Shown in pieces: positions 1-45,670 of a stretch of 64,000 nucleotides of DNA (positions are counted from its first letter, which is position 1; every line of letters starts with the position of its first letter). This DNA comes from Scatophagus argus. Lineage: Eukaryota; Chordata; Actinopteri; Scatophagidae. The position numbers and the translations under genes are program-made. Under the pieces are notes generated by a model. The model was not told where the DNA came from, did no database searches, and was given only the letters and a program-made list of their open reading frames with translations. The stretch spans positions 3,960,055-4,024,054 of the forward strand of contig NC_058508.1 in the NCBI RefSeq assembly GCF_020382885.2, given 5' to 3'.

Positions 1-5241
<5,241 letters not shown>

Positions 5242-6962: not shown

Positions 6963-7042
6963 ATTAAAAATAAAGTCCAAATAAGTATAGCTCAGCTCAG
7001 AGGCAGCACATTTAAAGCTCTGATATTGTCTTATTCTTTCAG

Positions 7043-13852: not shown

Positions 13853-16800
13853 TTACAGGTTTAAGGTGTGCCACGTCTCAGCTGTGACAACAGGGTAAAT
13901 ATGCGCTCTTTCAAATCCATTGAAGTCTGTGCATAAACAAACAGAGTAAGCACCCATATTGTCGAAGAGAAGCCAGTCCCCCTCTTGCAGCTCAGGAATC
14001 CAGTAGTTGTCAGCTACTTTGTCAATGCTGTCACAGGTTGGACCCCAGATGATAGACCGGTATCTCTGTTCACTGCTCTCTACAGCCTGTGTAAAGCACA
14101 AACATTGAGATATAAAATTGTTCTGGTTCTCATATTCCCCCACAGTTTGTTGTTTTAAAATCCTGTTTTACAATTTTGTCAGCCCAAAGGGTAAGTGATG
14201 GCCTACAGGTGTTCTACACTTTATTTTAAACAAACATTTCTGAACATAGAGATGGTATCAGGTTGGGATTTGTGCTTTAGAGCCCAGTATGCCAAGCAAT
14301 TACATCCGTATTGAACAATTCCACAGCTTAAGATTCATGTTGAGTGCTAATATGAAGTGCCAATGCAGGAAACAGAGACGTCCTTAGATGGACAGTAAGC
14401 CTGAGGAGGTTGCAATCTGAATTGTGTCTTTTACTCCAAGCACTCCATCAATCTTCATTGTTATGCTGATTTCTCCAGAGCTCCATCCACCGGCACCAAC
14501 CTCAACTTGCATCACCTCCTTCCCTGTGCTTCTACCCTGCCTGCCTATCCCCTGTTCATCAACCAACTTGCACTCCTGCTTTCACTGTTCACAGCCCAGC
14601 CAGCCATTATATTATTGGATATGTAGTTGATATTTACTCTGTGAAGGTAGGGTTCAACCTCGTTGTGGGCAGGATCATTGATTAGGCAGCTTAGGGAACC
14701 ATACACTCCATCATTAAGGTAGTACATCATCACTGTGTCAGGGCTGCCCTCACCATCTGAAAGAATTACATGCAAAAAAATGAAATACACTAAAATGGCA
14801 ATGAGATCATATAAAATATGCAAATGTTTCTGAAAAAGAACAAATTCAAAACGCTGACTGTAGTTAACGTACACCTATGCCATCTAGTTTGTGTGATACA
14901 TGTGTGATACTGGAGAGAAAACTTTCATCTGGTTTCAAAAGACATATCTATACATTACCGCTATGTTCATCCTTATCTTCCCTGACGACTTTTTTGGCAA
15001 TGACGTTGGCTGCCAGTGTGAACGCGGATTCCACGTAGTATCGGCCTGGTTCTGCAATAACCTGCACCCCAGGCGGGAAATGTTCATCGAGTGCTCCATT
15101 AATGACTTCTGCAAACTAGGAGGGCAAAATACACACAAGTTAAAAGCATATTTCAAAGGTATTGTATGTTTCTATGATGTATGATCCATGTAATTATGCA
15201 GCCTTGATAAAAACCAAATTAAAAACAGTGATGGTATAAATTGTTGTCCTGCTTGCTTGAGGTAAGGGAACTTTATTAATAGATAATTTATACAATCATG
15301 ACTGAAGAAAAGGATGTAGGTACCGGTACATTTTTTAAAAAAAAGTATTTACACATATTTACACCTGGCAGTGGCAATCTAATGACACAAATTGTGTCCT
15401 TAGAATACTGAGGTGCATCACAACAATAAATAAACACTAATAAAGTTTTCTTATTTTACCTCCTCAAATTTTATTTTAAAGTTGTCTTTGCCAGGGAACC
15501 CTCCACCAATGTCCAAGAGACTCATCTGGAAGCCCAGCAAATTCTGAAAGAAATATCAGGACCACTTACTAACAAGGCAGCCTTTATAAGTGTTCATAAG
15601 CAGGGACTTACAGTCTGAACAGTAACATGGATACAAGTGTTAGTCACAAGCCAGATATTTTATTCATTTTGGTCTGAATTAAAAGCAGACTCTCTTTATT
15701 GTTAGTCTATTGAGATACAAATTGAAGAATTGCGTATGACCTGCAGCAAAACCCATGCTGATGATAACGCCAACAATCAAAATGTTGATACAACTTATTA
15801 ACATGTCTTGTAAAGAGATGACAGAGACTGAAAAAAACTGAAGCTGACCAGTTAGAAGATTATTGCAGGCAGGTGGAGCAACTTCAAGGTGAATTAAGAA
15901 GCACAGATCAGTTCCAGTGTTCAAGCTACCAGAAACTGCCTGAGTTGGAAGCTATTGTCAGCAGCCATTTCGATTTCATCATTTGCCTGGAAAAGGGCTG
16001 TCATACCTGTTAAATATTTGCTTCACTCCAACATAATGCTAATATTTAAACTAATATTTAACAATTTAGATTATATGCAAATATTAACAGCCGTGAAACA
16101 GCTCAATATGTACATTAATCTCAAGTTGGCATAAACTTCCAAAAAGCCTGGCATTTACTTTTCTAAAAAGCCATGGAAATGAAATGAGTGACAGTTAATG
16201 CCAGAGACAACAACCAGTTAACAATTACAAGAACAAACTCAAAGAATTGAAAAGTCCTAAATGCAAATGATAAATCTTATGGGTTATAACTGATTTATAC
16301 AACTAATGAAGCCCTCATGGAATGTGCCTTAATAGAATGTGGTACCATAATGTCAATCAATCAGATAAAGAATCAGTCAAAACAAACATTTTTCTTTTCA
16401 AAAGTGTAACAGTATTAAACATGAACAAACATATTTTCACAAGCTGTCCAGAATTCTGATTTGATGGCCCCCCTGCAGTTCAAATGAAGAAGTGATGGTA
16501 AGTTATTGTGTTCTGCTTTCCTCACTCAAATTTACGCTTATGGCCACCACTGCCTTTTTGAGACTATACTGTACTGTATTGTAAAGCTCTAGTGCTATGT
16601 CAGTACTTACTGCTTTGTCAAAGACATGTCGGGCATCTGCTATGGCCTGCTTGAATGCCAAACTTCCGATGCACCCACTGCCTACATGGAAGCTGACCCC
16701 AATGACTTCTAAGCCCAGCTCTCCAGCACGTTCCAGTAGCTTATCAACTGTCTCCAGTCTGGCTCCAAACTTTGAGCTGAGTTTTAATAAGGATGCTGAA

Positions 16801-17863
16801 TCATCCACTGCAATGCGGAGCACCAGTCTAAAACGTGATTCAAAAGACTTAAATGAGTCAACACCCAAAGAACGATTTACACCAAACATAGAAACAAAAT
16901 GATCAGCAGTGCTTCACTTACTTGGCTTTGGCGTGACAACGAGAAATTTTTAGGAGTTCGTCCTCGCTGTCAAAAGTCATCATATTTACTCCGTGAGTGC
17001 AGGCATATTTGATGTGTGACAGCGGTTTGGTTGTATGTGCGTAAATGATTTTATCAGGTGTCACTCCGAGGGACAGGGCCAGCTGAATCTCACTCTGTGG
17101 GACCAGAACGTGTTTTCAATGAGCAAACTAGGAAAAATATGACAAGGAAACCAGATTTCTCCATAACAACTCTTGTTAAGAAAAAAATACTTCACAGTAC
17201 CTTGCTGGCACAGTCAAAGCCTGTTCCCAGAGCACTCAGCATCCTCAAAACTGCTGGTACGTTGTTGCATTTGACTGCATAGAAAGGCTTGACTCGAGGT
17301 AAGTTATTGAGCCACCTGAGGTGCCTCTGAAGCAGACTATCGAGGTTTGCCACATAGAATGGCTCTTCACTGTCCTAAATGAAAAAAAATGTCAAGAATC
17401 TCAACCATTTCACAATGCTTTCACACAATGCTACATTTATAGTTAACTTAAGTGTCATGATGTCTCTGATACTCACCTTTGAGCCAAGCTCTTTTATTTT
17501 GTTGTCTATGAAATCACTGATTGTCCTTCCATTGTTTAAAATGTCGATGCCACAATTCTTAGGGGACAAACCATGCATGACTGATCCATTAGTTACTGGT
17601 GCTACAAGGGATGACAAAGAGTAAAAGACAAAGGCATAAAGAAGCATTACTAACAGCTGTCTGTTTACATATTTGAATACAAAACAAATACTATAACTGT
17701 CCTATTTGTATACCTATTTGTCTAAATTATAAGAATGAAATGAAAATAATAATCAAAAACAAAAGAACACAAAAAGGCACATTTCATTCATTTATTACAA
17801 CACATTAAATGCCGTTCTGAGAAGTTTTTGCTTTGTCTTACCGTGGCTTGTATGCAGATCCAT
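13853..17863 (-). CDS. Ornithine-decarboxylase-like gene, copy 1 (9 exons, 434 aa)
   Basis: Exons in gene order: 17863-17842, 17601-17477, 17374-17201, 17094-16922, 16827-16611, 15543-15460, 15115-14959, 14756-14638, 14086-13853. All have GT-AG borders and fitting phases; total 1305 nt. This is a fold-III PLP decarboxylase. It keeps the PLP lysine in PFYAVKCN (ODC Lys69), TGFDCASK (Asp88), FHVGSG (His197), [15 protein letters not shown] (Glu274, Arg277), Asp332, WGPTCD (Cys360, Asp361) and DNMGAY (Tyr389). These argue for a working enzyme, not an antizyme inhibitor. Differences from ODC: AHTTKP replaces the usual NPCKQ motif, Tyr331 is Asn (CLINDPAH), and the protein ends WHTLNL without the ODC PEST/degradation tail. 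The start is the first ATG, in a 22-nt coding exon. A two-residue gap relative to copy 2 lies in exon 7. The substrate may be ornithine or another amino acid. Confidence 0.9.
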
Positions 17864-19486
17864 TTTTGAAATCCCTGAGAATTGCAAATATTTGTAAATA
17901 AGTCTAGGTGTTATAATGGCTTTCTTATGAAACAGAAATGGAAGTTTGACAGTAAGCACTCACATAAGTCAAATGAGACTTGTTCTTTTTGTTAGCACAC
18001 AGGTGACTTTCTCCACCTACTTTTTAAAAGTGTACACTGATCAGTCACTATATTAATATTAATATCGCCACCTCCTCCCACTGTACAAAAGTGATGCCAC
18101 AACAGGGTTTATGATCAGTATTGGTGCCAGCCACCAGGGGGCAATCAAGATGTCCATCTTTGTACATATACAGTCAATGGATTCTTGACTCTGCAGCAAC
18201 AGAAGACATTCTAGGTGTCTGATCACAATAATGATATATTGTTTTTAGGATCTCCACTACTGTAGGTTTTAGTAATGTTTGCACAGCCTAACTACGTACC
18301 GACTGACTCATAGTTGGTCAGCATAGTTTAAGAGGTCAAATAGCAAGAAAAAGAAACACTCTGTGTCAATGATTATTCATTGATGATTCACATCATTATG
18401 AGGTTTTTCAAATGTATCTGTTCAAAAAAGAAATCAGTATCAATGTCAGTTTACAGTGCCAGGCCACACCTGTCAATTTACCTTGGCTTGTTGCTTAAAG
18501 CATGGCTCATGCACAGTGCAGTCATCGCTGTGTATCATCCATTAATTATGTGTGCACACTTTTAAACAGTACTGTTGCTACAGCACAAAACTGAACAGTC
18601 AAAAGTTTAATTTACATTGCCACAGAGACAGTCAGAACTGAAATAACAATTTAGTTATAACTGATGCAAACTGTTCCTGTCAGGACATGCACTTTGTTTT
18701 AGTTGGCATATTTAAGCCAATGTTGATTTCTTCACACATTTGAATAAGCAAGGCAAACAGGACTTTTATGCTGTCACAGTGATGTGAAAAGCACAATTTG
18801 GAAAGTAGAAAGGAAAGTAAATTAAGTTTGAATTAATTTCAAAGACATGTTTGCTTAACTTTACCATTGATCACTAGTGGTTAAACCTGGAACAGGATTC
18901 CAGTATCTACAGACACAGAATCCTGTAATGCCATTAGAATGAGTAATACAATGCTCTGTTGGATGAGGTGTATGCAATGGCTCATGAAGGATGATTAGTT
19001 ACATGGAGGCATCGTGATCAGTAAAGATTTAGCACTTTAGTACATTTAATACTGTGCTTTATTTGAAGGATATAAACCAGTACAAATACTTTTATCTGTT
19101 TAAAATTGGACAGGATTCCCCTGCAGTAAATAAACTGACTTTAATATGGAAAGTGGATTGTAAAATCAGTCTTCTTCAGCATGCCCACTTTCAGCTGACA
19201 CCCAGCCTTCCAGCCAATTAACCAGTGCATCAGATGGCTTGTCTGTCAACCTGTCATTTAGCTGGTGTTTCTGTAATCCGTGTTTCTAACATCAAATTCA
19301 GGATAAGTATATTTACAAAAATCAATGAAGTTGATGAAACAAACCATAAAATAAATTTACTTGCAATTTTTTTTAACTGAGTGTATGTCACATATGATCA
19401 TATTCTCTCTTGTTTATGTCTTACACTTTTTGGAATCAGGGTTGTAAAAGCAAACATATTTTTAAATATATTTTTCTTCTTAAGAT
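17864..19486. other. Intergenic DNA between ODC-like copy 1 and the VMAT-like gene
   Basis: The divergent upstream regions of the two genes lie here. I see a repeat with a CTCF-like core near 18131 but no gene, TATA box or other clear promoter element. Confidence 0.4.
18112..18182 (+). repeat. Interspersed repeat with CTCF-like core, copy A
   Basis: GCCAGCCACCAGGGGGCAAT followed by CAAGAT and then TACAGTCAATGG. The same start and end occur at 60497-60585 with a longer middle. The CCACCAGGGGGC core (18131-18142) fits the known CTCF consensus; binding is not shown. Confidence 0.5.
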
Positions 19487-19967
19487 AAGATGAACTTTAT
19501 TGATCCCGCAGTGGGGAAATTTACTTGTCGTGGCAGCTCACAAGAACAGAGTTCAAAAAACAAAAAGGGTGCAAAAACAGTTACAAAAAAATACAGAGGT
19601 AATAAATTAACAATTCACAAACATAGTAAATACAGTACAATATACAGCTACATACAAGTCCTCATAAGGGAGGAAAAGAGAACTAGACCATTGAATTATG
19701 TAGTCTAACAGCAGTGGGAATGAAGGACCTGCTGTAGCTCCTTCCTACACTGAGGAAGGAGTTATTGAATTCTGTCATTTTGTCATGGCTATGCATCAGG
19801 GCAGGGTGTTGCCCTTGGTAAACATATCTGCTTTTTGTCTGTTTGCTGAGAGTCTCCAACTGCTGAGCAACAGCTATGAACTGAGAAGGCTGTTCACGCC
19901 TTTCAAGTTGTGACATCTTTGTCTGTACTCTGTGAAAGCTGGAAGTATGGGTGAGTTTCAAGTACAA
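19487..19967 (-). mobile_element. Antisense 3' end of a non-LTR retrotransposon
   Basis: The plus strand begins with ACTTTATTGATCCCGCAGTG, the reverse complement of a common fish LINE end. The minus strand then has an open frame at 19967-19683 ending SFIPTAVRLHNSMV, which resembles the C-terminus of fish LINE polyproteins. Family (Rex1-like) is from memory. Confidence 0.6.
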
Positions 19968-20336
19968 TATTTTCTTAAATTTGTCTTAAAGTTATCTTTG
20001 GTTGTATATAGAAGTTATCTATAAAAAGTGAATACATACACATTTCAGGTATTACACAAATCTGGAAATGTACAAAAGGAACTGCTGCAAAACACGTTTT
20101 ATGCTTTTTTATATATTTTGTCTTGCATTTACAGATATGTGCTTAGAATGTAAAAATTCATAACACAGACCAGTTTTATGTTTCATGATGCAACAAATGG
20201 GTGACCATATGGCACTGTAGTAATCTAGAATTACTACAATAGAATATTAGATGTCAAAGATGACAAACACTGTGCATGTCTGCTGTGTAACCTAGACTCG
20301 ATAAGCTGTCTGAAACATGAGGCCCACCTGAAGAAG

Positions 20337-23300
20337 ATGGTCCTGGTCATTGTCTTCATCGCCTTGTTCCTGGATCACATGCTACTGTCAGTGGTTGGTA
20401 GGTTCCGACATAAAACCTGTGGTGGACAGTGGCAGTGGACCTTAAACATACACTTTGGAGTACGTTGCTACAGTTGAGAGGGAAAAAGTGTGATAGCTGA
20501 AGTGACAAGTCACTTTAGAGATCAATATATTATGCTTTTTTTGAAAATGACATTGATAACGCTGATTAATATATTATAATAGTCATTTTGAGTGTTTTGC
20601 TGAGGAAATCTGATCACATTTAAAATAGGAGGATCAATTATTTTGTTGACAGTGCCAATTCTACCAAGTTACCTGTACAACACTGACCAGGATGCCACCA
20701 GCACTCCAGGGAACGGCACTGACTCAACAAATGATCCTCCTATCATCCACTCAGTCAGTAACTCTAGGATTTTGGCCTCTACATTTGCATCTCCAAGCCA
20801 GAACCTGGATCTCTCCAGTTCAACCTACTCTGAAGCAGATGCTGATCTGGACACAGTAAACATAAAAGTTGGACTGTTGTTGGCCTCCAAGTCCACCATA
20901 CAGCTAATTGTTAACCCTTTCATTGGGCCACTTACTGACAGGTGAGTGGATTTGATCTCTAGGAAACAGGCAGACATTTAGCAAGCTCAAAATTACTGTT
21001 TTCCCTACCTGTGTATTGTATATCGCGCAGAGTTGGATACCACATCCCAATGTGTGCTGGTTTCTGCATTATCATCCTTGCAACCACTTGTAAGTACCAC
21101 GTTATCCACCTTTCAGACAAGAGCTTTTCATGAAATGAACAGTTCTGTTTTTCATTTGAACAGATATTTAACATTTAAACAGGACTTTCTTGATTGTATT
21201 TTGACTCATGGCCTCCATCATCACCACAACTCACTGTGGTAACACAGGGCCATTTCTCTTTATCTGAATGCAACCTTTTCCATTTCAAATCTGATCTCTG
21301 CAGTGCACCACTGACACGTCAAATAATATAATAATAATATAATAATCACACAGTTTGTCCTTAGGCTATTAGAACCGGTGCTACAAGGTAAAATTACTGG
21401 CAGAGATGTTGTGTTTGAGAAGTGCAACGCTGCTTATTAGTGCAACAGACAAATGACTGAAATCTGCTTCTGACAAAAGATATTTTGGGCGACAGAGGAA
21501 ACCTTTTACTAATCCAGCTGCAGTGTGACTCCACAGATACATACAGACTAGTGACTAAGACCTTGCAGCAACACAGTCATTCATTCTCCTATCTCTTCAT
21601 CTGTCTTTCACATTATTATTCAGGTTGTGTTCCTTGACTTGTAATGCATTTTGTAATTTTCATTTTCTGTGGTTACTGATTTAATTAGCTCCTTAATTGA
21701 TCCTTAATTCTATTTACACTGTCAAAATAAAGTATATATAAATGATGTTTTTAACATGTGTTACACAAAGACAAGTAGTTATTTTTCTTAATTTAATCTT
21801 TGTTTCTTGTAAGTGTTTGCCTTTTCATCTAGTTTCATCTTACTGCTGTTGGCCAGATCTGTGCAAGGTATAGGTGGATCCTGCTTGTCTGTGTCAGGTG
21901 AGATATATTTATTTATGAATATTTTGTTCACATTACTGAGTTGGCCTTTCATTTAATTTTACACAAGCATTAATTAAATAGCAATTAAGAGACTAATAAG
22001 AAAGAGCAGGCGTCTAAACAAAGCGAGAACATGCTTGCGACGTAAGTGTGTGTGTGTGTGTGAGTGTGCGCAAAAAGATAGTGTTCCCAACTGAACTTTC
22101 ACTGAGCTTACTATTCAATTCATTATCTCTATTATTAATATTATTATTATTGTTATTGTTGTCATATTTGGTGTTGTTGCTGTCGTTGTTGTTGTGACTT
22201 CTTTTGCAGGAATGGGTATGTTGGCTGATGTCTACAAAGATGGCACGGAGAGAGGACGTGCAATGGGTATATCCTTCTCTGGTCTGGCCTTAGGATTGAT
22301 AGGTGTGTATCCAGACACAGCTTCTAATGTAGGTGTACATTCAAAAATACTCTGAGCCTCACTCTGAGAACTGTATGGATCTAGCAAACTGCAAAATGCT
22401 CACCCTGACGGAGATTTCAACCTTGCAAATCTCGACTCAGTGCTCCCTAAATTTCGCCAGCATGTGGACTTTGCAACGAAAATTGGAACACGTGGATACG
22501 TGTTTGGAGTGGTAGATGTGGTGTGGTGGCGGGGATGGTTGTGGTGGTATGTACTGATACTCATAGCGGCGACGAACTCTTTGTCTGTGGACTCTACCTG
22601 ATGGAGTCGGCCGTTTCTTGAAATGAAGGTCCTGCACATGAGCTTGGAGCTTCCTCTTCAGTTTGTCAAGTCTCTAGGCCATCCATCAAAGTGTTGAGGA
22701 GCTGTCGTCGGCCCTAAACTGTCTCTTCGTACACAGAATCTCTGCCATCTTCACTTCTTGCAGTTGAGCAGGCGGTGAGGGAACCAGGCTTGACGTCACA
22801 AGTCTCGATCCCAGAGGAGGAGAGTGCTCGGATCATATTTGTTCTTAAACGCGTATCAAGTATGATGGTGCCTCACAGCAGGAGGGTTCCAGGTTCGAAT
22901 CCCCTGTTCTTCCTGTGCCTGTGTCGGGTACTCCCATAATCCCACAAACATGCATGTTCAGCCGATTGACCACTACTACTACTGTCCCTGTGAGTGTGTG
23001 AGTGGGTGGTTGTCTGTCTTTGTGTGTCGGCCCTGCAATTGATTGGAGGTGTATCTCACCTTCCGTCCATAGTCAGCTGGGATAGGCCCGTGACCCTGAC
23101 GGATAAGCAGTATAAATAATTGATGGATGGATGGATGGATGGACGCTGTATCAAAACGGACTAGTGTGGACGTAGCCTTATTCACACCATTGGATGCACC
23201 ACACACCCAGCACACACGCTCTTCACCCTCTTCTTCTTCTGGCTGAATATTTCCTCTTTTTCTCTTTTTAAACCTAAGAGATGTTTGGCGTTCTGATGAC

Positions 23301-26300
23301 TAGAACTTTGACAGATTGTCTTGACCTTGTTTAAATGCCAAAATATATTGAGTTGCTGCCACGTGATTGGCTGATTAGATATTTGCTTTGCTTTGGTGTA
23401 CCAAAGTGCCCAGTGAGTGTGTATATAATTCATTTTTTGTCACATTACAAGGTACTTAATTACACTGATGAAGTAAGCATACAAAAATAGATTATTGACC
23501 ATAAATAAGCCTGTTCATTTATTTGTGACATTTCCACAAATGGATGCTGGGACATGCTCCAGTATAAAATGAATGGTGGCATCAAAAGAGAAATGTATTG
23601 GTTGCCCTCCTCGGTCACTGAAGGTTACCTTAGACAGAAGACGTTTATTTAGGTTTGAAACTCGGACATCTAATTAAATGATGCTTTTCTCTCATACTAC
23701 ATCATGCTTCTACTCCAGCACTGAACATTTTCACTCTCACTTAATGTATGACTTATCTCTTTGATATCCCAAGCGGGTGCTCCATTCGGCAGTGTGATGT
23801 ATCAGTTTGTGGGGAAGATGGCTCCGTTTCTGGTCCTGGCTATCATTGCTGTGTTGGGTGGAGGTACTGTTAGATGAAACATTTAATTCCCCTCTAACAG
23901 TTGTATATGATGTTGTTTGTGGATCAGACTGATCAGTTTTACTGTCCTTACACAGGTTTACACTTCCTCATCTTTCAACCATTGCAGGCGCAAACAGAGG
24001 TAAAGGATTTCAGTTACTTTCAAAAGACTGAAACCTGTGTTTTGAATATCAAATAATGACCTCTTGTACCGCTCATGTGATACTCATGTGCATTGTTGAA
24101 TGTTGTAGATCTCTAAAATTTGTTTTATGCTTCTACACAGAGGGAAAAAGGGACTCCACTGCTGACTCTCTTGAGGGACCCATACATTCTCATTGCAGCT
24201 GGTATTCTAAACAATAGATATAGACAGTAAATGTATGCTATACAGTTTGATGTCATTTGGTATGTTTTGAATCCTCCATGCTTGTCTCCATAACACACTT
24301 ATTCACTGTGTGACAATGACAATATTGTTTCCTTCCAAAAACAAACATAGCATCTTTTTATTCTAACCCAAACCCATTCTAACCCCCCCCAACAAAATAA
24401 AAACTAAAACAAAAAAAGCTAAAACAAAAAACAGGCTTTGTTGAAGTGAAATTTATTAGATCTGCGTAAAAACAGTGTAGTTTTTAGCACTGTTACCTCA
24501 CAGCAAGAGGGTTCTGGGTTCAAATCCTGGTCTGGGCCCTTCTGTGTGGAGTTTGCATGTTCTCCCTGTGCCTGCGTGGGTTTTCTCCTCCCACAATCCC
24601 AAAAACATGCACATTGTTTTTACATTGTGCTCTATTTTGCCCCTTGATGTGATTGTGAGATTGTGTGGTTGTCTGTCTTGCCTTGCGATTGACTGGCGAC
24701 CAGTCCAGAGTAAACCCCACGTCTCGCTCGTAGTCAGCTGGGATAGGCTCCAGCCCCCCCGCGACACTGACGAATAAGCGGTATAGAAAATGGATGGATG
24801 GATGGTTATGTTCTTATGCAGGCATTTAATGTCATAATTACCTGAAAAAGTTAACAAGACAACTATTTTGTTTTTGCATTTAATTAGTGAATCAATTGTT
24901 TTTAATCATTATTATCAATTGTCCATGCCACATTAAAGTTCAAATCAAATCACATCCCTGAAAGCAAAATGAAGACCTGAATTGTGTTTCAATCTTATCC
25001 AGCAGAGGACGGCATAGACCTGTAAATATTATATTCAAACAGCTGTCATTAATTCACACAAGTATGAAGAGATGCACAGAGGCTTTCTTTTTGAGATGCA
25101 GATGCACCATAAATGTTTACGTGGAAAACAGTCTGAAAACAATTGTTAGTTGCTGCTTTTCATCCCATTTATGACTTTACCATTGTGTCTGTTACTCAGT
25201 GACGGTGGCTGAACTCTGCACTTAAGTTATTGTGAGTTGTGATTCAAAGCATTGTATAAAATATGGAGAGCTGATGTTAAAGCCCTACCCTGCTGTGAGT
25301 TTTCAGTCGACTAGAACCATGGCAGAGAGACAACTAACAACAGCTTCACCTCTTCTATTACATGATGCAAGATGAGCACAATACTGAATGTATGAGAGCT
25401 GACAATGACTCAAAATAATAATAATAATAATAACTTTATTTATATAGCACTTTTCATAAACCGCGTTTCCAAAGTGCTTAACAATCATTTAAAAACAAAA
25501 CCAACAAATTGCATACAAATAGAAGGCAATAATTTGACCTGTGCTAAAGCAGCTGTTATCAATATTTTTCTGATAATAAGATCAAATGGCAAAGTGAAAC
25601 AACTTGACAAATGTATGTAATGGAAAAAGCAGCACCAAACTCAAGCCTTCCCCTTAACAACCAGAATATTTTTGCTTTATCCAGGCACACCATACCATCG
25701 GAAGACAATGGTTTTGCTGCTGATCTATTTCAAATGGCAAGTCTGTGATCAGTCACTGAATCTGCAGATTTCTTTTGTTTTATGGGGCTTTATGGGATCC
25801 TTTAGCTCGCTGTGAATCAGTCCAGCTGCAACGTTCTTTTTGGCTCATTTTTACTGCGCTCTGTCATTTTTGACAAGCTAGGATAATAAGGCATTTATTA
25901 ATCAGGGTGGAGATGTAAGATGACGACAAGTTCTCTGTGAAGCTAATTCCACCTCAGCTCCACTGGTGATGACAAGGGTGTGTGAAGGGTATGTGTCTTT
26001 GCCCTCCTTTTTCTTAATCAACAAGTAGTTCCGTGGTTGACTTTGAGCAGTAGGCTGTTATCTGTGCACCACTTTGTAAGACTGTGGATTCCCTCTCAAT
26101 ATGAAATTTTGTAGTTGTTTGTAATCTGTCCAATGATAGTGGCGTTTTAAGTGGTAAGTGCAGTTGTGAATGTACAGTGTGAACAGGAAGGGGCTGAGCC
26201 CTGGAAGCTTCTGGTGTTCGACACAAAAGCAGGGGAGGCATGACTGTAAATCAAAACTGTCTGGGGTCTATTAATGAGAGTGCAGTACTCAAACCCAGAG

Positions 26301-29300: not shown

Positions 29301-31528
29301 GAAAATGTTTGCTTGGAAAATCCTATCTGAATAGTCAAACTGCATTTTTATATTTCTCTGTTGCTGTCCTATTTTTATTTATTTTTATCTTATGGTGTCT
29401 TTGTGTCAGGCATTGTCTTCTTGCCAGACAGCTTATGCTACCTCATTGCCTCCAACATCTGCAGTCGCCTGTCACAAAAATACAGTAGAAGGTATGTTGA
29501 TGGATTTGAATACAGAGGCCAGAGATGAGCAGAAATATTGTATTTAGAGCCTCTGGAGTGAGTTTATTTCTTTTTTAATTCTAGATTTTTTTCATTTTTG
29601 TGAATATTCCTTAATTTATAGTATTTTCTTCATGGTTTTAGTATAAAACATACCAATAATGCCATATCCCATAAAGTGTTTATACTATTTTCTTAATCTC
29701 TTTCTACAGTTGGCTATGGGCTTGTATTGGAATGGCTGCGGCAGGAATCACCACCATTTCTGTGAGTACAATACAGGGTAAATATTTTGTAATTGCATTA
29801 AAATGCTTCCGTGGCATCTGCAAGGCCTATTAAATTAAATCTATTAAATCTATGCAGGACCTTGAATAAAGCACTGTGTAAATACTTTCTTATAATATAA
29901 TATAATACAGTAAGACAAGATAAAACTTTATTAGTCCCGCAGTGGGGAAATTCTCTTTTTTTTAAGATTAAGATAGTACAAGCAAGTGAATTTGTACTGT
30001 TTTCAATAGGGTGTAGAGGCAATCAGTCAGTTTTTTTTTATTTACATTTTAGATGGTGGTCCAACTTTTTGGAATTACACTTAAACATACATATACGTTT
30101 TCGTAAATATTTCAGATTTTTAAATAATAAATAACATAACTTACCCATTTTCCCTGTTTTGTACATTTAGTATGTTTACATCATTAGTACATTTTACTTC
30201 CATGGCACACATATACACAAAGATGTTTTCCTCTTGTTAGATAACCTCTGTCTGTAATTTGCAGGATGCAAAGCAAACGGTCTTCTACATGTTTGTACAT
30301 ATTTGAAATTTAGAAAAAATAGACACTCAAAGTAAAATCCAAAAAGAATGCTGAGTTTGTACACATTTGTCTCCCATCTTGTCATGGTTCAAGCTTTATT
30401 CATGATTCTCTGTCTTTCTTTATATTTCAGTTTGGATTTTCCAGCACCATCTACCATTACATTGTACTGAATGCATTTATTGGCTTTTCATCTGGTAAAT
30501 CATTCCTAATAATATTATTACTAATATTTGATGTTAAAGCAATGAATTACTTGTTGGCAATAAACAAGAAAGTAAACAAGTAAACAATAATAATTATGTT
30601 TCTATCAGGCACAGTGGACTCTTCAGTAATGCCTCTCATGGGTTACTTGGTAGACATGAGACATGTGCCGGTATACGGTACGGTTTATGCTATTGCCGAT
30701 GTCGCAGTTTGCATTGGATTCTGTGTAGGTGAGAATTTTTTTAGATTTTCTGCACCAAACGATAACACCAATTATGCTGCTAAGGTGTTTTTTATACAAC
30801 GAAGTGATGATTCTTGATGTTCATTCATGGCCAAAAATATTGGCACTCCTGCATTAGAATTATTATTAATAATAATAACAATTATTATTATTATAATGCA
30901 CGGCTTCTCCCAGAAAACTGTTGAAATTTCAAATACTTCAGTATTGTCGTGTTTATATCTTTTGTTTGCATTGGAACAACACAAAAAATCTGAGAAGTCA
31001 AAAGTCAAATCTGACCCATTTCGCACAAAACTCCAAAAATGGACTGGAGTAAATTATTGGCACCTTTTCAAAATCGTAAGAAATAATTGGATTTCAATCA
31101 TGTGATACTCCTTTAATTTGTAATTAAACACACCTGTAGCAATTAACAGGTGCTGACAATAAAGAAATCACACCTGCAACCAGTTAAAATGGAGAAAATA
31201 TTATATATCAAATATTTGTTTGTTTCTTTCTCTTTTGAGGTGTTGAATGTTGTTTGTTCTGTCCAAAGGTCCAGTGATTGCGGGTCCTGTAGTGGCATCA
31301 GTTGGCTTCCCCTGCCTCATGTCCATAATTGGAACAGTAAATTTAATCTACGCTCCCCTCTGTGTCTTCCTTTTTAGTCCATCTTGGCAAGGGGAACCTA
31401 TGGTGAGAGCTGGAAGGAAAATATACCTACAAAACACATTTGTGATACATACAACAGTCACATCTGCTTATCTGCAGAGAGAGGTACCTCTCTTTGGGAT
31501 GACCCCTCCTCCAGTAGAATGGAAGTGA
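20337..31528 (+). CDS. Vesicular monoamine transporter-like gene (SLC18A family, 14 exons)
   Basis: Exons: 20337-20397 (could start at 20296 or earlier), 20653-20941, 21031-21089, 21814-21897, 22210-22302, 23774-23863, 23956-23999, 24141-24201, 27834-27929, 29410-29491, 29710-29761, 30431-30494, 30609-30728, 31269 to 31402 or 31528. Every junction is GT-AG and in phase. It is an MFS proton/amine antiporter with the VMAT layout: TM1 ([13 protein letters not shown]), a long Ser/Thr-rich luminal loop with one NGT glycosylation site, [63 protein letters not shown] and [11 protein letters not shown]2 residues Asp33, Lys138, Arg189, Glu312, Tyr341, Asp399, Tyr422 and Asp426 are kept. Asn34 is His, Phe135 Leu, Asn305 Thr and Tyr433 Phe, and both cysteines of the luminal disulfide are missing. 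The N-terminus is unresolved: ATG 20337 sits inside TM1, so an upstream exon is likely. The C-terminus is also uncertain. Confidence 0.88.
22862..23146 (+). mobile_element. SINE copy in VMAT-like intron
   Basis: GGTTCGAATCCC B box, a GTCAGCTGGGATAGGC motif and an ATGGATGGATGG end. It has internal deletions relative to the copy at 34364. Confidence 0.65.
24474..24806 (+). mobile_element. SINE copy in VMAT-like intron 8
   Basis: TAGCACTGTTACCTCACAGC head, GGTTCAAATCCT B box (mutated), GACTGGCGACCAGTCCAGAG, then an ATGGATGGATGG tail. Same orientation as the gene. Confidence 0.7.
25413..25480 (+). repeat. (AAT)n plus TTTATATAGCAC repeat
   Basis: An (AAT)n run is followed by AACTTTATTTATATAGCACT, a common short fish dispersed repeat, within the large VMAT-like intron. 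Confidence 0.5.
25985..26460 (-). mobile_element. Antisense Rex1-like RT fragment
   Basis: One minus-strand frame reads [14 protein letters not shown], the reverse-transcriptase strand before the catalytic YADD box in Rex1-type elements, and then decays. Lies in the 3.6-kb VMAT-like intron (24202-27833). Confidence 0.55.
27020..27420 (-). mobile_element. Antisense non-LTR element fragment
   Basis: Antisense phrases of the kind found upstream of the RT core in fish LINEs (around TTGTCATGTCCAGCAGCCTT). It may be the 5' continuation of the fragment at 25985-26460, separated by unrelated sequence. Confidence 0.4.
28467..28492 (+). repeat. Poly-T tract
   Basis: Run of about 26 T in the VMAT-like intron 27930-29409. 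It could be the antisense poly-A of a retroposed sequence, but no source was recognised. Confidence 0.6.
29915..29965 (-). mobile_element. Short antisense LINE tail
   Basis: AAACTTTATTAGTCCCGCAG then TGGGGAAATTC, the same family of 3' end as at 19487. Confidence 0.5.
30823..31190 (+). mobile_element. Tc1-like transposon 5' fragment
   Basis: TGGCCAAAAATATTGGCACTCC and an inner TGGAGTAAATTATTGGCACC resemble the repeated inverted-repeat ends of a Tc1-like family. The following untranslated part ends before a transposase frame becomes readable. It sits in the last intron of the VMAT-like gene, very near exon 14. Confidence 0.5.
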
Positions 31529-32860
31529 ATAAAATTTCATTTGTGGCACTCATAGTAGTAAAGAAAAATAACAGCTTGAAAACTGTTCATAGTAAGGAAA
31601 GAATTTTTTTACATGACAAAATCAAAACTAAGGATATATATTTAAAATGAATGGAAAGTGAATTAGGAATAAAAAGTGGCAAAATCCAACATCCCTAATT
31701 GTTTCAATCCAGCCATTCAAATTTTTCTAACATCTATATTTTACTAATGGTTGTGTGTTGTAACAGCTCTGCTGTCCGCAAATACATGTGACAACTTGAG
31801 AATGTGTTCAGAGATCTCCACACACAAATTTTGAATATGCATTTGTAAATTTCATTTACAAATTTGATAACACACATGGATTGAGATGCAGTGATACAAC
31901 ACACTACTCACATTTTTAAAGCGCTGCTAGAATAATGGTCCCATACTATAAAAGTATACTATCTGAACTTGCTTCAGCCAAGTACTAGCCCAACCCCAGC
32001 TATTACAGTGTTGATGCATTTGCAGTCTGTCATTGTCTGTTTCATCTTGTGTTCCAGCCAATAACAAAATGAACCAAAGGAAGCTCAGCCTGCGAACTTG
32101 GAGTCACACTGTAAGTATACCTCAGTACAAGAATTTTTGGTGTTGCTTTGTATGGAAAACTACCATGAAAGTTCACTGTTTACAAGAAACACTAACTGAG
32201 GATGCTCACTGGTATTATATGGTAAAAACAAGCTTTCTTTCACTCTTGTTTCATCACTTTTTTTCAGTCACACCAGCTCCATGGCTCCAAGCATGGCAAT
32301 GTTTACCCAGAGTGCATGTCTTGCACAAGAGTGCAAATCATTGTTGGTTGAAGCATGTTGACTATTCAGGAAACATGACTTATGATTCAACATGTCTTAT
32401 CATTATCATTAGGACAACAGGCCACTTGTAGAGTAAACTGCAGCCTGTCAATTGGGGCACAGTGAATGGGGGATGGTGAACGTTATTTTTTCTTTTTTTA
32501 TGTATCAGTTAAACTGGTGTGTTTATATGCGTGTGTGCTAATTCTTTTTTCTTTTATAGAAGTAAGTGCTTTATCGTTGCTGTTCAATTTTCCAATTTGT
32601 TGCTTTGATGAAGATTTGTTTGTGCGTGTATATATTTGTCTCTGACTTTTAGTCTTGTGAATAACTTTTTTTCTTTAGATAATCTTTGTTCATGCAGTGT
32701 TGGGGTGGATGGAGTAAATAAGTAAATATAAAAGTATATATAAATATGAATTGTCCCAGGGGCATCTTTGCATAGCCTGCATCTGGGGTCCTGTCTGGTG
32801 TGGTAGACCCCAGCCTCTATTGATCTTGTACTGAGTGCCTGTTCTTGTGCTAGATAGATA
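31529..32860. other. Downstream region of the VMAT-like gene
   Basis: Holds exon-like borders at 32058 (TTCCAG acceptor) and 32109 (GTAAGT donor). If exon 14 of the transporter uses the GTGAGA donor at 31403 and joins at 32058, the frame reads PITK and stops at 32070-32072. No other gene is seen. Confidence 0.35.
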
Positions 32861-34920: not shown

Positions 34921-34989
34921 AACCTCTTTGAAGGTATAGAAAGATTCAGCCTTGATGAAGACTTCTTTGCATTGGTGAAACTATTATAC

Positions 34990-35400
34990 ACTGCAGGAGT
35001 ATTAGTACAAACAAATAACATGCAAGTCACACTGCCTGTCAGCCCTGCGATTTAACAATAGAACCCTAAAGCTTTTGTTTACACATGGAAGACACCACAC
35101 ACAAGTTTTCACTTTATGCTGATGATATACTATTTTATATCTCACATCCTGCTACATCACTTTCTGCCCTACTTCATATCTAAGAGCAATTCGGTAAATA
35201 TTCTTCAAGTAAACTTATCTACTAAAAGAGTGAACTGTGAATTCACTGCTGTCAATTCACTGGCAGGACAGGTTGCATGCTCCCAATCACAAAGATTGTT
35301 AATTCCCATACTATGCTTGCAGCTCCTTATACTCAACACTCAACAACCACCTTTTCAAACCTTTTCAAACAAAGTACATATTCAGTAATTGGTTCAGTAA
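34990..35400 (+). mobile_element. L1-type RT fragment
   Basis: The plus frame around 35107-35150 reads FSLYADDILFYIS, the catalytic YADD block of L1-clade reverse transcriptase, after a degraded upstream part near 35035. Downstream homology becomes weak. Heavily frameshifted. Confidence 0.65.
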
Positions 35401-35871
35401 TGGCAGAGTGACTATGAATAATTTGTACAAAAACTTTTCCTTATCTTTTACTGAGCTTTCATAAAAATTATCTTAAGGTCATTAATGCCTGCAACCGGTG
35501 AAAATAACTCCTTGCTGAACAGTTACATATTCTTGTCTTGTCTTGTCTCCATCTTTGGTGCTTGATCTGACACCAGCCTCTCTGTTGGTATACAATGAGC
35601 CCTGGCCTTCATGCTTTTACTGGCCCAAGTTATGATTTTACTGAAAGGGAAGCACACTTCCTTCCCATGCACAAGCTTTATGGAGGTTCTGTTATCTGTT
35701 CAAGTTTCTGCAGTATTAAACCTGAGGAACTTAGATTCTCTTTAAAATAAATCATTTGAATAAACCATGACATTTTGATCTTTTTGGAATCTAAAGACCA
35801 ATTCAACATTTCACCAGACACTAAAGAAGGTTCATTCCAACTAATACATATATAGAAGCATTCCCAAATAA

Positions 35872-38800
35872 TTAAAAGACAATGTTGTAGTTGTGAGTCA
35901 GGTTTAAGGTGTGCCACGTCTCAGCTGTCACAACAGGGTAAATGTGTGCTCTTTCAAATCCATTGAAGTCAGAGCATACACTAACAGAGTAAGCACCCAT
36001 ATTGTCGAAGAGAAGCCAGTCCCCCACTTGCAGCTCAGGAATCCAGTAGTTGTCAGTTACTTTGTCAATAATGTCACAGGTTGGACCCCACATGATAGAC
36101 CGGTATCTCTGTTCACTGCTCTCTACAGCCTGTGTAAAGTACAAACATTGAAATATAAAATATACATCACACTATATCATTTTCCCATTCTTGTAAGGCA
36201 GCAAGGTTGATATTTACCCTGTGAGGGTATGGTTCAATTTCAGCGTGGGCAGGATCCTTGATAGGACCACTCAAGGAGCCATACACTCCATCATTAAGAT
36301 AGTACATCATCATTGTATCACCATCCTCACCATCTGGAAAAAATTACATGCAAAACAACGAAAGTTACTTCAAAGTAAAATGACATCTACGTCATATCAA
36401 ATATGAAAATGTTTTTAAAACAGATGTCGGAAATAAAAGAGCATTATAATAAAAATAATCTATGGACTCCACCACATACACAAGGGTCTCTGGCTCTCTG
36501 CTCATTGGTAGTAATTATGACACTGCAGCTCAGGAGTGTGATTAGTTTATGTTTAGTTATTACCCACCTCTGACAACCAGATATTGTACACTTATGATAA
36601 CTTGTTTATGGATGATGCTGGAGAGAAAACATTCACGTGGCTTCAAAAAACATACAGTATCTATACATTACCGCTATGTTCATCCTTATCTTTCTTGACA
36701 ACTTTTTTGGCAATGACATTCGCCGCCAGTGTGAACGCGGATTCCACGTAGTATCGGCCTGGTTCTGCAATAACCTGCACCCCACTGTCAGGCGGGAAAT
36801 GTTCATCGAGTGCTCCATTAATGACTTCTGCAAACTGGGAGGGCAAAATACAATAAGTTAGAATACGTCAAATATATTACACCTTTGCACCTATTTCTAT
36901 GAAGCATGATTACGAAGTAATCATAGAGCCCGTGTTAAAAATAAATCACAACAGCTTATATACCAACAATGTATAAAATATTACCATGCTTGCCTGCAAT
37001 ATGGGAACATCTAAGTAAAGCTAAATGATGAAAAGGATCTGGGCACATTAAAAAATGTCTTCACATATTTATATCGGGCAATGGTTGTTCTGTAAATTCA
37101 GCTGACTTGTTTGTTTAAAGACTCTTTAATAACTTTAATGGTCCTTGAGGGAAAACAGGACACTTTGTAATTATTTGTATCCTTAGAAAGCAGAGGTGCA
37201 TCACAACAATAAAGTTTATTTTATTTATTATACCTCTTCAAATTTCACTTGAAAGTTGTCTCTCCCAGTGAACCCTCCACCAATGTCCAAAAGACTCATC
37301 TGGAAGCCCAGCAAATTCTGGAAAAAAAAAACCCAAAAACAAATCAGTGCCATTTCTTTAAAAAGGGTTCATAAGCAGGGACCTACAGAGTGTACCATGT
37401 AGACGTGTTTGTAACAAGAGCCCCACAGGACTCCCATGGGATATGTCAATCCTGCTGGTCTTACTTAAAAGGAGACAGCTGGACAGTTGTAAATTGATTG
37501 TAAGGGAAGTGAGAACGCCGAAGAATAAAACACGAAAGCCTATTCTGACGCTAATGCCAACAAGTAGTAAATGTGGAAACAAACTATTAACGTGCTTAGT
37601 TTTGTTAACAGCCATAACAACCAAGACTGAAAAACTAGAATTGACAAGCACAGTCATACACATCAGTTGCCGGGTTCAAGCTACAAGCTACAAGCAGAAA
37701 CAGGCTGACTGACTTTGAAGATTCTATCATACATCATCATTACATCATCATACCTTGGAAAAGACTTGCTAACTATGACAGGAGTTTTCAATAATTAGAG
37801 AACACTGCAAACACATCACATCACAGCAGTTAAATATTATCATCTACCATAAGTTGGAACCCTATTACAATGGTCTTTTCGAAATAAATGAAATCGTCAA
37901 CCCTACAGCAGTCACTTCTGGACAGCAGGACTTGTCCTCCTTCTTTGAAAATCCATACTACCTTACAAGTGTCTCTGCTCAAACATGTCTCTTCCAGCCC
38001 CAGCTACTGTATCTGAGGCCACTTTTGGGTTAATTTAAAAAATAAACCTTAACAACTAAGGCTGTAATCCCATTTGTCTGGTCCACTGCTGTGCCTAATC
38101 TTCCTGGCCATGTCACCATACTAATAATGCATGAAGAATCAATTCTGTTATGGTATCAGGGCATTTAGCTACATACTAATGGCAGCCTTTGGCTCACTTC
38201 AATTCAGCAAATCTGTCCCCGAATTCATTGTGTCAAGATTGTTAAATCCACATAACTAATACTGATTGAAAAGGTGCTTGTGCTGTGGACATATGATGCA
38301 TTGGATTTCAAAATAGAGTAAGATAGAAAAAATATCACGGGGTGAAAAGAAAAGCGAGGCCAGGGAAAACAACAGATAGTATCCAAAGTTTGGGATCATT
38401 TCAAGATGTACCATCATAGCATGACCTCACTATTTACACCATCTTAACAGAAATCAAGCAGTCTACTTCAAATCAATGAGCAATTGCTCATTTCAAGACA
38501 CCTGCCGTATTTTCTGTGTGTACTGAATATTTAATTAAATATCATAGGACCAGCATTCATCTTAGAACTCAGGTCCAAAGGAGTGATGTTTCTTATTATT
38601 CTGCAAATATGCAAACCACACTCATGATTGTCACTGGAAACACATCAAAATACAAAAAAATATTTTTAAAAAAGTCATTTAAAATTTATCAAAAGAAATA
38701 TTGAATGTCTGTGTTTTATTGTTCAGTGGAATTTTTCAGGGCAGTTATTTTTTGTCATTGCCAGTAAAATTTTTCAAATACTCCACAGTCACTTTTCTGG

Positions 38801-40296
38801 CCCCATGCAAAAGCACAATCTGATCTGATGCCCTCTGCAGCTTCACTGCAGCAGTGACGGCAAGTCGTTCTCTTTTGGCTTCCCCGCTCACATTTAAGCT
38901 AATGACGCTTCTTGAGATCGAGGATTTGCATCACAACTGTAAATCATCCCGAGAAACTTTATCAATGGCTACACATTCAAACATGTCAATGTACCATATT
39001 ATTGTAAAGCTCTAGTGCTATGTCAGTACTTACCGCTTTGTCAAAGACATGTCGGGCATCTGCTATGGCCTGCTTGAATGCCAAACTTCCGATGCACCCA
39101 CTGCCTACATGAAAGCTGACCCCAATGACTTCTAAGCCCAGCTCTCCAGCACGTTCCAGTAGCTTATCAACTGTCTCCAGTCTGGCTCCAAACTTTGAAC
39201 TGAGTCTTACTATGGATTTTGAATCATCCACTGCAATGCGGAGCACCAGTCTAAAACGTGATTCAAAAGACTTAAATGAATCAACACCCAAAGAACGATT
39301 TACACCAAACATAGAAACAAAATGATCAGCAGTGCTTCACTTACTTGGCTTTGGCGTGACAACGAGAAATTTTTAGGAGTTCATCCTCGCTGTCAAAAGT
39401 CATCATATTTACTCCGTGAGTGCAGGCATATTTGATGTGTGACAGCGGTTTGGTTGTATGTGCGTAAATGATTTTATCAGGTGTCACTCCGAGGGACAGG
39501 GCCAGCTGAATCTCACTCTGTGGGACCAGAACGTGTTTCCAATGAGCAAACTAGGAAAGAATATGACAAGGAAACCAAATTTCTCCATAACAACTCTTGT
39601 TAAGAAAAAAAATACTTCACAGTACCTTGCTAGAACAGTCAAAGCCTGTTCCCAGAGCACTCAGCATCCTCAAAACTGCTGGTATGTTGTTGCATTTGAC
39701 TGCATAGAAAGGCTTGACTCGAGGTAAGTTATTGATCCACCTGAGGTGCCTCTGAAGCAGACTATCGAGGTTTGCCACATAGAATGGCTCTTCACTGTCC
39801 TAAATGAAAAAAATGTCAAGAATCTCAACCATTTCACAATGCTTTCACACAATGCTACATTTATAGTTAACTTAAGTGTCATGATGTCTCTGATACTCAC
39901 CTTTGAGCCAAGCTCTTTTATTTTGTTGTCTATGAAATCACTGATTGTCCTTCCATTGTTTAAAATGTCAATGTCACAATTCTTAGGGGACAAACCATGC
40001 ATGACTGATCCATCAGTTACTGGTGCTACAAGGGATGACAAAGAGTAAAAGACAAAAGCATAAAGAAGCACTGTCTGTTCCCACTTATGGACACAAAACA
40101 AATACTATAAATGTCAGGCTGTGTCATTTGTTGGTCTTGTTTATACCCATTTGTATAAATTATGCCATGACAATAGTAATCAAAGGACATAAATTAGTGA
40201 CAGCAATCAGTCAGATTTGCCTCGCTTATTACATCCTATTAAACAATGCTGAGAAGTTTTCTTCTTTGCCTTACCGCAGCCCACATGCTCCTCCAT
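35872..40296 (-). CDS. Ornithine-decarboxylase-like gene, copy 2 (9 exons, 443 aa)
   Basis: Exons in gene order: 40296-40275, 40025-39901, 39799-39626, 39517-39345, 39250-39034, 37317-37234, 36834-36672, 36333-36218, 36129-35872. All are GT-AG and in phase; total 1332 nt. Same architecture as copy 1, with [21 protein letters not shown], Asp332, TCD and DNMGAY all present. Differences from copy 1: a different N-terminus (MEEHVGC against MDLHTSH), [14 protein letters not shown] against [22 protein letters not shown], two more residues in exon 7 (PPDSGVQ), Tyr331 replaced by Lys (GPIKDPAH), and an eight-residue C-terminal extension (THNYNIVF). It also lacks the ODC PEST tail. Exons 2-5 and their introns are almost the same as in copy 1; the rest has diverged more. 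Probably a recent tandem duplicate that has begun to differ in substrate or expression. Confidence 0.9.
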
Positions 40297-45540: not shown

Positions 45541-45670
45541 TCTACATTGTATGGACAACCAATGCAATTCGGCCAATACTGGTGTAACGTGAGCTCTGCC
45601 TCATACATTAGTTAAAAGTCTAAATGCAGCTGCATTTTGGACCAAGTGAAGCCCAGGCACACAATAGCGA
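45541..45670 (+). repeat. Fragment of a common fish LINE-associated repeat
   Basis: Contains GCAGCTGCATTTTGGACCAA, a phrase very common in fish interspersed repeats. Adjoins the truncated L2 copy. Confidence 0.45.

Follow-up and report, generated by a model that had tools for sequence, protein, structure and literature searches.

Does a fish keep, side by side, genes for making an amine and a gene for packaging it into vesicles? In the 64,000-nucleotide stretch of Scatophagus argus DNA that we analyzed (the window), two intact minus-strand genes resembling ornithine decarboxylase (ODC), ODCL_A and ODCL_B, bracket one intact plus-strand gene, VMATL, resembling vesicular amine transporters (VMATs). 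This arrangement had been proposed in the original prediction, and it is borne out by exon-by-exon models with GT-AG junctions, which provide intact frames and coordinates (Table 1), and by Pfam and PDB matches. The ODC-like and VMAT-like genes are separate, neither nested nor fused, and the surrounding genes are unrelated (Clp protease, SRCR/Ig receptor, ankyrin, and cytochrome b561 pieces). By eye, the ankyrin neighbor looks TANC-like. The DNA separating the ODCL_A and VMATL start codons is a possible shared regulatory region; repeat-like sequence can be seen by eye inside it, at ~19480-19900. In the accessible parts of the open-access literature on fish ODC-like and vesicular amine transporter genes, PMC5859300 included, we found no description of such a cluster, which, judged by that open-access literature, appears to be undescribed.

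Table 1. Gene models and other features of the block, in window numbering
Feature	Coordinates	Strand	Description	Basis
ODCL_A	13853..17863	-	9 coding exons, 434 aa, without internal stop	GT-AG model
ODCL_A exons 1-5	17842-17863, 17477-17601, 17201-17374, 16922-17094, 16611-16827	-		
ODCL_A exons 6-9	15460-15543, 14959-15115, 14638-14756, 13853-14086	-		
ODCL_A/VMATL start-codon interval	17864..19946		2083 bp, head-to-head	gene-model coordinates
VMATL	19947..32072	+	16 coding exons, 462 aa	translation equals P0121
VMATL exons 1-6	19947-19950, 20296-20397, 20653-20941, 21031-21089, 21814-21897, 22210-22302	+		
VMATL exons 7-11	23774-23863, 23956-23999, 24141-24201, 27834-27929, 29410-29491	+		
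VMATL exons 12-16	29710-29761, 30431-30494, 30609-30728, 31269-31402, 32058-32072	+		
ODCL_B	35872..40296	-	9 coding exons, 441 aa, without internal stop	GT-AG model
ODCL_B exons 1-5	40275-40296, 39901-40025, 39626-39799, 39345-39517, 39034-39250	-		
ODCL_B exons 6-9	37234-37317, 36672-36834, 36218-36333, 35872-36129	-		
Near-identical stretch, copy A	16720..17700	-	exons 2-4 and part of 5, introns included	sliding identity
Near-identical stretch, counterpart in copy B	39034..40025	-	exons 2-5	

The ODC-like array extends past the window: some 8 kb outside it lies copy C, the third (71949-75492 when window numbering is continued; C16:4032003-4035546). Copy C, which is identical to S. argus P0001, went unnoticed in the original prediction. 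The last 350 residues of ODCL_B are exactly S. argus P0045, which is annotated at 350 aa, and no protein identical to ODCL_A was found among the listed proteins. The best PDB sequence match of ODCL_A is ornithine decarboxylase (2oo0, E 1.8e-150; 1d7k is labelled human), and ODC-like identity to human ODC is 55%. As in ODC1, a fold-III PLP enzyme, a Pfam scan of A and C finds two domains in each (Orn_Arg_deC_N and Orn_DAP_Arg_deC), and copies A and B, which are ~92% identical, keep all 20 ODC catalytic/PLP residues, including D332 and D361. In contrast to ODC1, the ODC-like genes form a tandem array and a clade of their own, Y331 is replaced by N or K, copy C carries D361H, and the C-terminal tails are short, A ending 3 residues past the aligned part compared with ~45 residues in human ODC, with short tails in B and C as well. 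The human extension is a degradation tail. That the ODC-like genes might be pseudogenes or pseudoenzymes was rejected in view of their intact frames, their kept core residues, and a dN/dS below 0.5 (0.28-0.43 among A, B, and C).

How these proteins vary across the family was assessed on the 107 of 121 rows that passed a gap and length filter, after removal of the insect proteins P0069 and P0078; since copy C and P0001 are identical, these rows represent 106 proteins. Among the 14 rows filtered out were P0100, which has a disrupted stretch (354-368), and P0045, the 350-aa piece of copy B. While K69, R154, E274, C360, and Y389 are invariant, the substrate-contacting aspartates often change: 24 rows are altered at D332 or D361, both being kept in the other 83, and on the tree D332 changed 16 times and D361 10 times, which amounts to 26 of the 40 changes inferred over 20 key sites (one of the 40 being a gap state at G171). 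All 24 altered rows (23 distinct proteins) nevertheless keep K69, R154, H197, E274, C360, and Y389. Changes elsewhere affect S200 (8 rows), R277 (3), F397 (2), H197 (1), and K169 (1). Because the core is invariant while D332 and D361 often change, this pattern favors a diversification of substrates rather than a loss of catalysis. In a tree built without Gm853 and without Xenopus AZIN2/ODC2, ODC1, antizyme-inhibitor-like proteins, and AZIN2 form a clade (UFBoot 96) that excludes the ODC-like set, composed of 12 listed fish proteins and A, B, and C. The ODC-like genes were rejected as AZIN2 orthologues because they do not group with the five AZIN2 sequences, all from tetrapods, in that tree. 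S. argus carries an ODC1-like gene of its own (contig C15) and two antizyme-inhibitor-like genes (C9 and C17), which differ at several core positions, D88, R154, and C360 in both, according to composite readings. This loss of core residues, a hallmark of antizyme inhibitors, is absent from the ODC-like copies, unlike the C9 and C17 genes.

As for the transporter, VMATL is identical throughout to the S. argus protein "synaptic vesicular amine transporter-like isoform X2" (P0121), with a first coding exon of only 4 bases (ATGG). It contains an MFS_1 domain (Pfam), its best PDB sequence matches are VMAT2 structures (frog 8xiu, E 1.9e-147; human 8ucj, E 1.1e-142), and its predicted fold aligns with VMAT2 8jtc with a TM of 0.79 (query-normalized) and 0.92 (target-normalized). 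SLC18B1, although present in that database, was not among the PDB matches at E<=0.001, and VMATL thus appears no closer to this polyamine transporter than to VMAT/VAChT. D33, K138, R189, E312, W318, Y341, D399, and D426 are retained, so that the conservation of active-site and charge-network residues noted in the original prediction holds for the transporter as it does for the 20 ODC residues of A and B, whereas L, V, and D occupy the positions of F135, F429, and A337. These last three residues are conserved in VMAT1 and VMAT2. A second VMAT gene beside copy C was sought and discarded, tblastn (E<=0.01; window and 11 stretches) having found VMATL exons in the window only.

VMATL shares its fold and charge network with VMAT2/SLC18A2 and VMAT1/SLC18A1, but belongs to a clade of its own. 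In a tree of 27 VMAT-like, 22 canonical listed, and three human proteins, all 27 VMAT-like sequences group together (UFBoot 100) as sister to a monophyletic VMAT2 set (23 sequences, UFBoot 93), and this grouping excludes human VAChT and VMAT1, the latter represented by one sequence (UFBoot 96). Residues were counted in ungapped rows of 36 VMAT-like entries (P0121 was omitted as identical to the window protein), which are not independent because some are fragments and some species contribute more than one. An acid is found at position 337 in 34 of 35 rows, as opposed to A337 in 84/84 canonical slc18a2, and the clade has lost F135 (33/34), an aromatic residue at 429 (32/32), and P313 (36/36), while D33 (33/33), K138 (34/34), R189 (36/36), E312 (35/35), and D426 (32/32) are kept. 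Loss of N34 and N305 is not general in the clade, these residues being retained in 9/33 and 4/36 rows, respectively. Reports on N305 disagree: N305Q is described as abolishing transport in one assay (PMC11405867), while in another, of serotonin uptake, N305D kept 70% and N305A 17% (PMC12721464). V232L was rejected as a sign of a new substrate because human VMAT1 has the same residue. In VMAT2, Ala337 is reported to touch the tetrabenazine tail, near the dopamine ring site (PMC11405867), and E312 and D399 to be two alternative amine sites (PMC12721464).

A lack of conservation in related fishes, which would have spoken against the original prediction, was checked as contig sharing and was not seen. 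Among the best 120 matches listed per search, and with contigs matched by their lengths, ODC-like and VMAT-like genes lie on the same contig in all 19 other fishes for which the contigs of both were listed (Myripristis and diverse percomorphs), with contig sharing being what was seen in these species and adjacency in S. argus only. By the same measure, canonical slc18a2 is on the contig of ODC-like genes in 0/26 species and on that of VMAT-like genes in 0/13, a different contig not always being a different chromosome because some control contigs are small scaffolds. The idea of a strict three-gene module finds no support, since for 45 of the 64 ODC-like species having a listed contig no VMAT-like protein was among the matches listed.

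We tentatively read the block as an enzyme-plus-vesicular-transporter cluster for an aliphatic amine, a reading whose chances we put a little short of even. In the cytosol, ODC-derived PLP decarboxylases would act on an amino acid, releasing CO2, and a proton-driven SLC18A-type antiporter would then move the aliphatic amine so formed into acidic secretory vesicles; we infer the substrates, vesicle loading, shared cell type, expression, and co-regulation. Since neither substrate-contacting aspartate is altered in A or B, these copies would most likely convert a basic amino acid to a diamine (putrescine or cadaverine), while copy C, with D361H, should favor a different substrate. With E312 and D399 kept, an acid added at 337, and aromatics lost, the VMATL pocket would be better suited to aliphatic amines, diamines among them, than to serotonin or dopamine. 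The non-classical amine of the original prediction is consistent with the residue changes in VMAT-like (337, 135, and 429) and ODC-like (D332 and D361) proteins. A and B themselves may simply be ODC isozymes since they keep D332 and D361. A broader and more doubtful proposal is that spiny-rayed fishes possess a further vesicular amine system, in which a pocket aspartate has shifted a third VMAT-type pump toward diamines or aliphatic amines, and this pump is genetically linked to fast-diversifying ODC-derived decarboxylases whose pockets vary by copy and species.

The genes could also be functionally independent neighbors, a duplicated VMAT-like gene and a tandem array of ODC-like genes having met on one early-acanthomorph chromosome and stayed linked by inertia, as chromosome linkage can last without selection. 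The 45 species with no listed VMAT-like protein, the unrelated genes in the neighborhood, and the separateness of the three genes all agree with this. We nevertheless think it rather unlikely, because linkage has zero exceptions in the 19 listed species, the start codons of ODCL_A and VMATL face each other head-to-head only 2083 bp apart, and substrate sites have changed in ODC-like and VMAT-like partners alike.

It is less probable still that VMATL is a classical monoamine or histamine transporter of altered pharmacology, with A and B as ODC isozymes for ordinary polyamine supply. The kept VMAT charge network, the 20 ODC residues kept in A and B, and the VMAT1 state of V232L speak for it. Against it, nearly all VMAT-like rows have gained an acid at 337 and lost F135 and F429, at positions conserved in VMAT1 and VMAT2; moreover, the genome already has an ODC1-like gene, and D332 and D361 have been altered many times over within the ODC-like family. 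It seems highly improbable that the ODC-like proteins act as antizyme-inhibitor-type regulators with little catalytic activity. One paper reportedly describes recurrent inactive ODC homologues, and D332 or D361 is missing in 24/107 rows, but every one of these rows keeps the six core residues listed above, whereas the S. argus antizyme-inhibitor-like genes lack core residues.

The aliphatic-amine cluster that we favor resembles known pairings of an enzyme with a transporter. At the cholinergic CHAT/SLC18A3 locus, a biosynthetic enzyme is likewise paired with an SLC18 vesicular transporter, but there the transporter gene sits inside an intron of the enzyme gene, while the fish genes are separate and the enzyme is ODC-like. 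Bacterial speF-potE and cadA-cadB also place a decarboxylase beside the transporter of its product; these are, however, unrelated proteins, encoded in operons and acting by plasma-membrane antiport. Altered substrates in ODC paralogues have precedents in mouse Gm853 (leucine) and a Xenopus protein (lysine). Gm853/ODCrp, like the fish proteins, is an ODC paralogue with kept catalytic residues, and it is reported to act on leucine (PMC6313458, PMC7671201, PMC5518511) while retaining both aspartates (PMC7671201), in line with a precedent invoked by the original prediction (PMC6313458, PMC7671201); the accessible sections of these papers mention no linked transporter. Xenopus AZIN2/ODC2, a vertebrate ODC paralogue, is described as a lysine/ornithine decarboxylase making cadaverine (PMC6738921), and the fish clade lies outside the five tetrapod AZIN2 sequences in our tree, the Xenopus sequence not being among them.

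A linked enzyme-pump pair with substrate-site changes on both sides is a concrete candidate, and a natural experiment in how the ODC fold and the VMAT pocket shift substrate. To our knowledge, vesicular amine transport in vertebrates has been described for a few classical transmitters, and we know of no established vertebrate transmitter-like role for ODC-derived aliphatic amines. If the proposal for spiny-rayed fishes is correct, such amines might be stored for release as signals, for instance as ligands of the fish trace-amine receptors for putrescine, agmatine, and isoamylamine. The amines detected by fish olfactory TAARs are described as microbial decarboxylation products (PMC4695389), and the cluster would be a possible host source of them.

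Finally, copies A, B, and C share a near-identical stretch, in which A and B are 94-99% identical, and the three pairs 90-99%, in 250-column windows. Gene conversion may lie behind this. Homogenization of the barrel half alone holds for A-B and B-C, but was dropped for A-C, because several 3' windows are also 91-99% alike in that pair.

Gene models built on GT-AG junctions, together with annotated S. argus proteins, bear out the original prediction that two ODC-like decarboxylase genes on the minus strand (ODCL_A and ODCL_B, hereafter A and B) surround a VMAT-like transporter gene on the plus strand (VMATL) in this window (G000:C16:3960055-4024054; genome total, 570.7 Mb). The S. argus protein P0121 is identical, letter for letter, to the VMATL translation, and a second one, P0045 (350 aa), is the exact C-terminal part of ODCL_B. 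ODCL_A and VMATL are arranged head to head, with start codons 2083 bp apart, and VMATL and ODCL_B tail to tail. The product of a third ODC-like gene, copy C, is identical to S. argus P0001 and carries D361H (human ODC numbering), that is, GPTCH in place of GPTCD. Scored PF02784 matches elsewhere in the genome include an ODC1-like gene (contig C15) as well as antizyme-inhibitor-like genes on C9 and C17, one on each, and tblastn against the window and 11 other stretches of the genome returned no VMATL match outside the window.

Features of the cluster (window numbering)
Feature	Position	Strand	Description
ODCL_A	13853-17863	minus	9 coding exons, 434 aa; GT-AG junction model
VMATL	19947-32072	plus	16 coding exons, 462 aa; GT-AG junction model
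ODCL_B	35872-40296	minus	9 exons, 441 aa; GT-AG junction model
Copy C	71949-75492 (C16:4032003-4035546)		Intact third ODC-like copy; loci L009-L010, outside the window
Near-identical stretch	16720-17700 (A); 39034-40025 (B)		Counterpart in copy C

Pairwise identity among A, B, and C is 91-92%, and their identity to human ODC is 55%. In a tree that included 12 listed fish proteins and these three, built without mouse Gm853, the ODC-like clade (support 97) falls outside a grouping (96) of ODC1, tetrapod AZIN2, and antizyme-inhibitor-like proteins. We compared 107 rows of 121 (106 distinct proteins) at the 20 key residues of ODC, which PMC5518511 describes along with the parts that D332 and D361 play in substrate contact. 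The predicted conservation of active-site residues holds for A and B, which keep all 20. Across the family, K69, D88, E94, R154, G235-237, E274, C360, D364, G387, and Y389 never change, while D332 and D361 are repeatedly altered, the latter also in copy C. These two positions account for 26 of the 40 changes across the key sites, the remaining 14 falling at S200 (6), R277 (3), F397 (2), H197, K169, and G171 (1 each, the last a gap). With 16 changes on the tree at D332 (17 rows) and 10 at D361 (13 rows), against a median of 7 per aligned site, the substrate aspartates evolve at the pace of ordinary or even fast positions, most other key residues being frozen; the D332 count is less secure than that for D361, which lies in the GPTCD motif, because some rows carry short gaps in the D332 loop. 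All 24 rows altered at either aspartate keep K69, R154, H197, E274, C360, and Y389, and 15 keep all 18 other key residues. As for precedents, a change of substrate to leucine in mouse Gm853 is reported in PMC6313458 and PMC7671201, and PMC6738921 reports a change to lysine in Xenopus AZIN2/ODC2.

A and B are 94-99% identical over exons 2-4 and part of exon 5, introns included (90-99% for the three pairs), and identity in the comparison windows next to this stretch is 37-85% for most pairs. The near-identity likely stems from gene conversion, which would homogenize the PLP-barrel half in all three copies. In the half bearing D332 and D361, B has diverged from A and C, and A and C, unlike B, are again 91-99% identical in several 3' windows. 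Over full coding regions, dN/dS is 0.33 (A-B), 0.43 (A-C), and 0.28 (B-C), so the three copies are on average under purifying selection.

The transporter was compared across 36 VMAT-like entries (some of them fragments, with certain species represented more than once), 84 canonical slc18a2 (VMAT2) entries, and human VMAT1 and VAChT, using VMAT2 numbering. The charge network is conserved, as had been claimed: D33 (33/33), K138 (34/34), R189 (36/36), E312 (35/35), and D426 (32/32), with W318 (36/36) and Y341 (34/35) also kept and position 399 acidic (30 D and 2 E, n = 32). The pocket differs: F135 is Leu in 33 of 34 entries, F429 is Val, Ile, or Leu in 32 of 32, and P313 is lost in all 36. Ala337, present in VMAT1, VAChT, and every one of the 84 canonical proteins, is replaced by an acid in 34 of 35 entries (D in 33, E in one), and the single other row is apparently mis-modeled there. 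N305T (28/36) and N34H (22/33) are common without being universal, and V232L, being the VMAT1 state, was discounted as evidence of a substrate change. In the structural literature, Ala337 and Val232 touch the tetrabenazine tail close to the dopamine ring site (PMC11405867), F135 and P313 are part of the Phe-layer gate on the lumenal side (PMC10770148), F135 stacks on tetrabenazine and F429 is an inner-gate residue whose mutation to Ala does not weaken tetrabenazine binding (PMC10959523), and the amine can be held by either of two acidic sites, D399 or E312 (PMC12721464). An extra pocket acid and fewer aromatics would suit a diamine or aliphatic amine.

When 27 VMAT-like and 22 canonical proteins were placed in a tree with three human ones, the VMAT-like proteins form one clade (UFBoot 100), sister to a monophyletic VMAT2 set that includes tetrapods (93), with human VMAT1 and VAChT excluded from this grouping (96); a fast rate could partly account for the position of the clade. 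Judging by species names, we take all VMAT-like sequences found to come from acanthomorphs. The structure predicted for VMATL has a mean pLDDT of 76.3, with low values in the lumenal loop, and best matches VMAT2 8jtc, with a TM score of 0.79 normalized to the query and 0.92 normalized to the target.

Linkage in other fishes was read from the best 120 protein matches each for ODC-like and VMAT-like, equal size of the encoding contig being taken as the same contig. Contig-assigned entries among these matches cover 28 VMAT-like and 64 ODC-like species, and in 19 of the 19 species with both, the two share a contig, which is linkage rather than adjacency in species that are not independent. As controls in the same lists, canonical slc18a2 shares a contig with ODC-like in 0 of 26 cases and with VMAT-like in 0 of 13. 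In Cebidichthys the shared contig spans just 1.88 Mb, and the 19 include Myripristis (Holocentriformes), the others presumably being percomorphs. Conservation of the block extends to contig sharing in the listed fishes, adjacency having been seen in S. argus only. In Sander lucioperca, ODC-like proteins are listed on contigs of two lengths (43593786 and 20298344), so the copies may belong to two chromosomes or two assemblies. In the Perca fluviatilis database model P0085, an ODC-like protein is fused with collagen and C1q domains, probably through adjoining genes merged by annotation.

We tentatively read the block as a cluster that would make and package an aliphatic amine, with a diamine as first guess for A and B. 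Its main rival, that these are functionally independent neighbors, seems somewhat less likely to us. Counting against a fixed pair, the best 120 matches hold no VMAT-like entry for 45 of the 64 ODC-like species, nor an ODC-like contig for 9 of the 28 with a VMAT-like one. Loss, annotation, clustering, or the listing of only the best 120 matches could each contribute to the missing partners. For the proposed amine cluster, the closest locus-level analogue is, we presume, CHAT with SLC18A3, and no description of the present cluster was found in the open-access literature searched.

Neighboring genes were named by Pfam on hand-picked translated pieces, six of seven giving a match: a Clp protease and an SRCR/Ig receptor to the left, ankyrin repeats and a cytochrome b561 to the right. 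By eye the ankyrin gene is TANC-like (an AAA match in its region fell below the Pfam cut-off), and since we take TANC2 to adjoin CYB561 on human 17q23, these two neighbors probably reflect old synteny, not the module. The cytochrome b561 exons (L012-L013, minus strand) are possibly of the granule ascorbate-recycling type. Plus-strand exons at ~1-7300 (L014) encode the receptor, which has SRCR and immunoglobulin domains; two pieces were assigned by Pfam and the remainder by eye. Near-identical copies of an apparent last Clp-protease exon, at L015 ~661-970 and L014 ~2727-3035, suggest by eye that the 3' end of clpp was partly duplicated in tandem. Inspection by eye also picked out a reverse-transcriptase-like open frame of 351 codons from a LINE-type element at 45668-46723, and a UnaL2 LINE 3' element on the minus strand (962-1015) scores over the Rfam gathering threshold.
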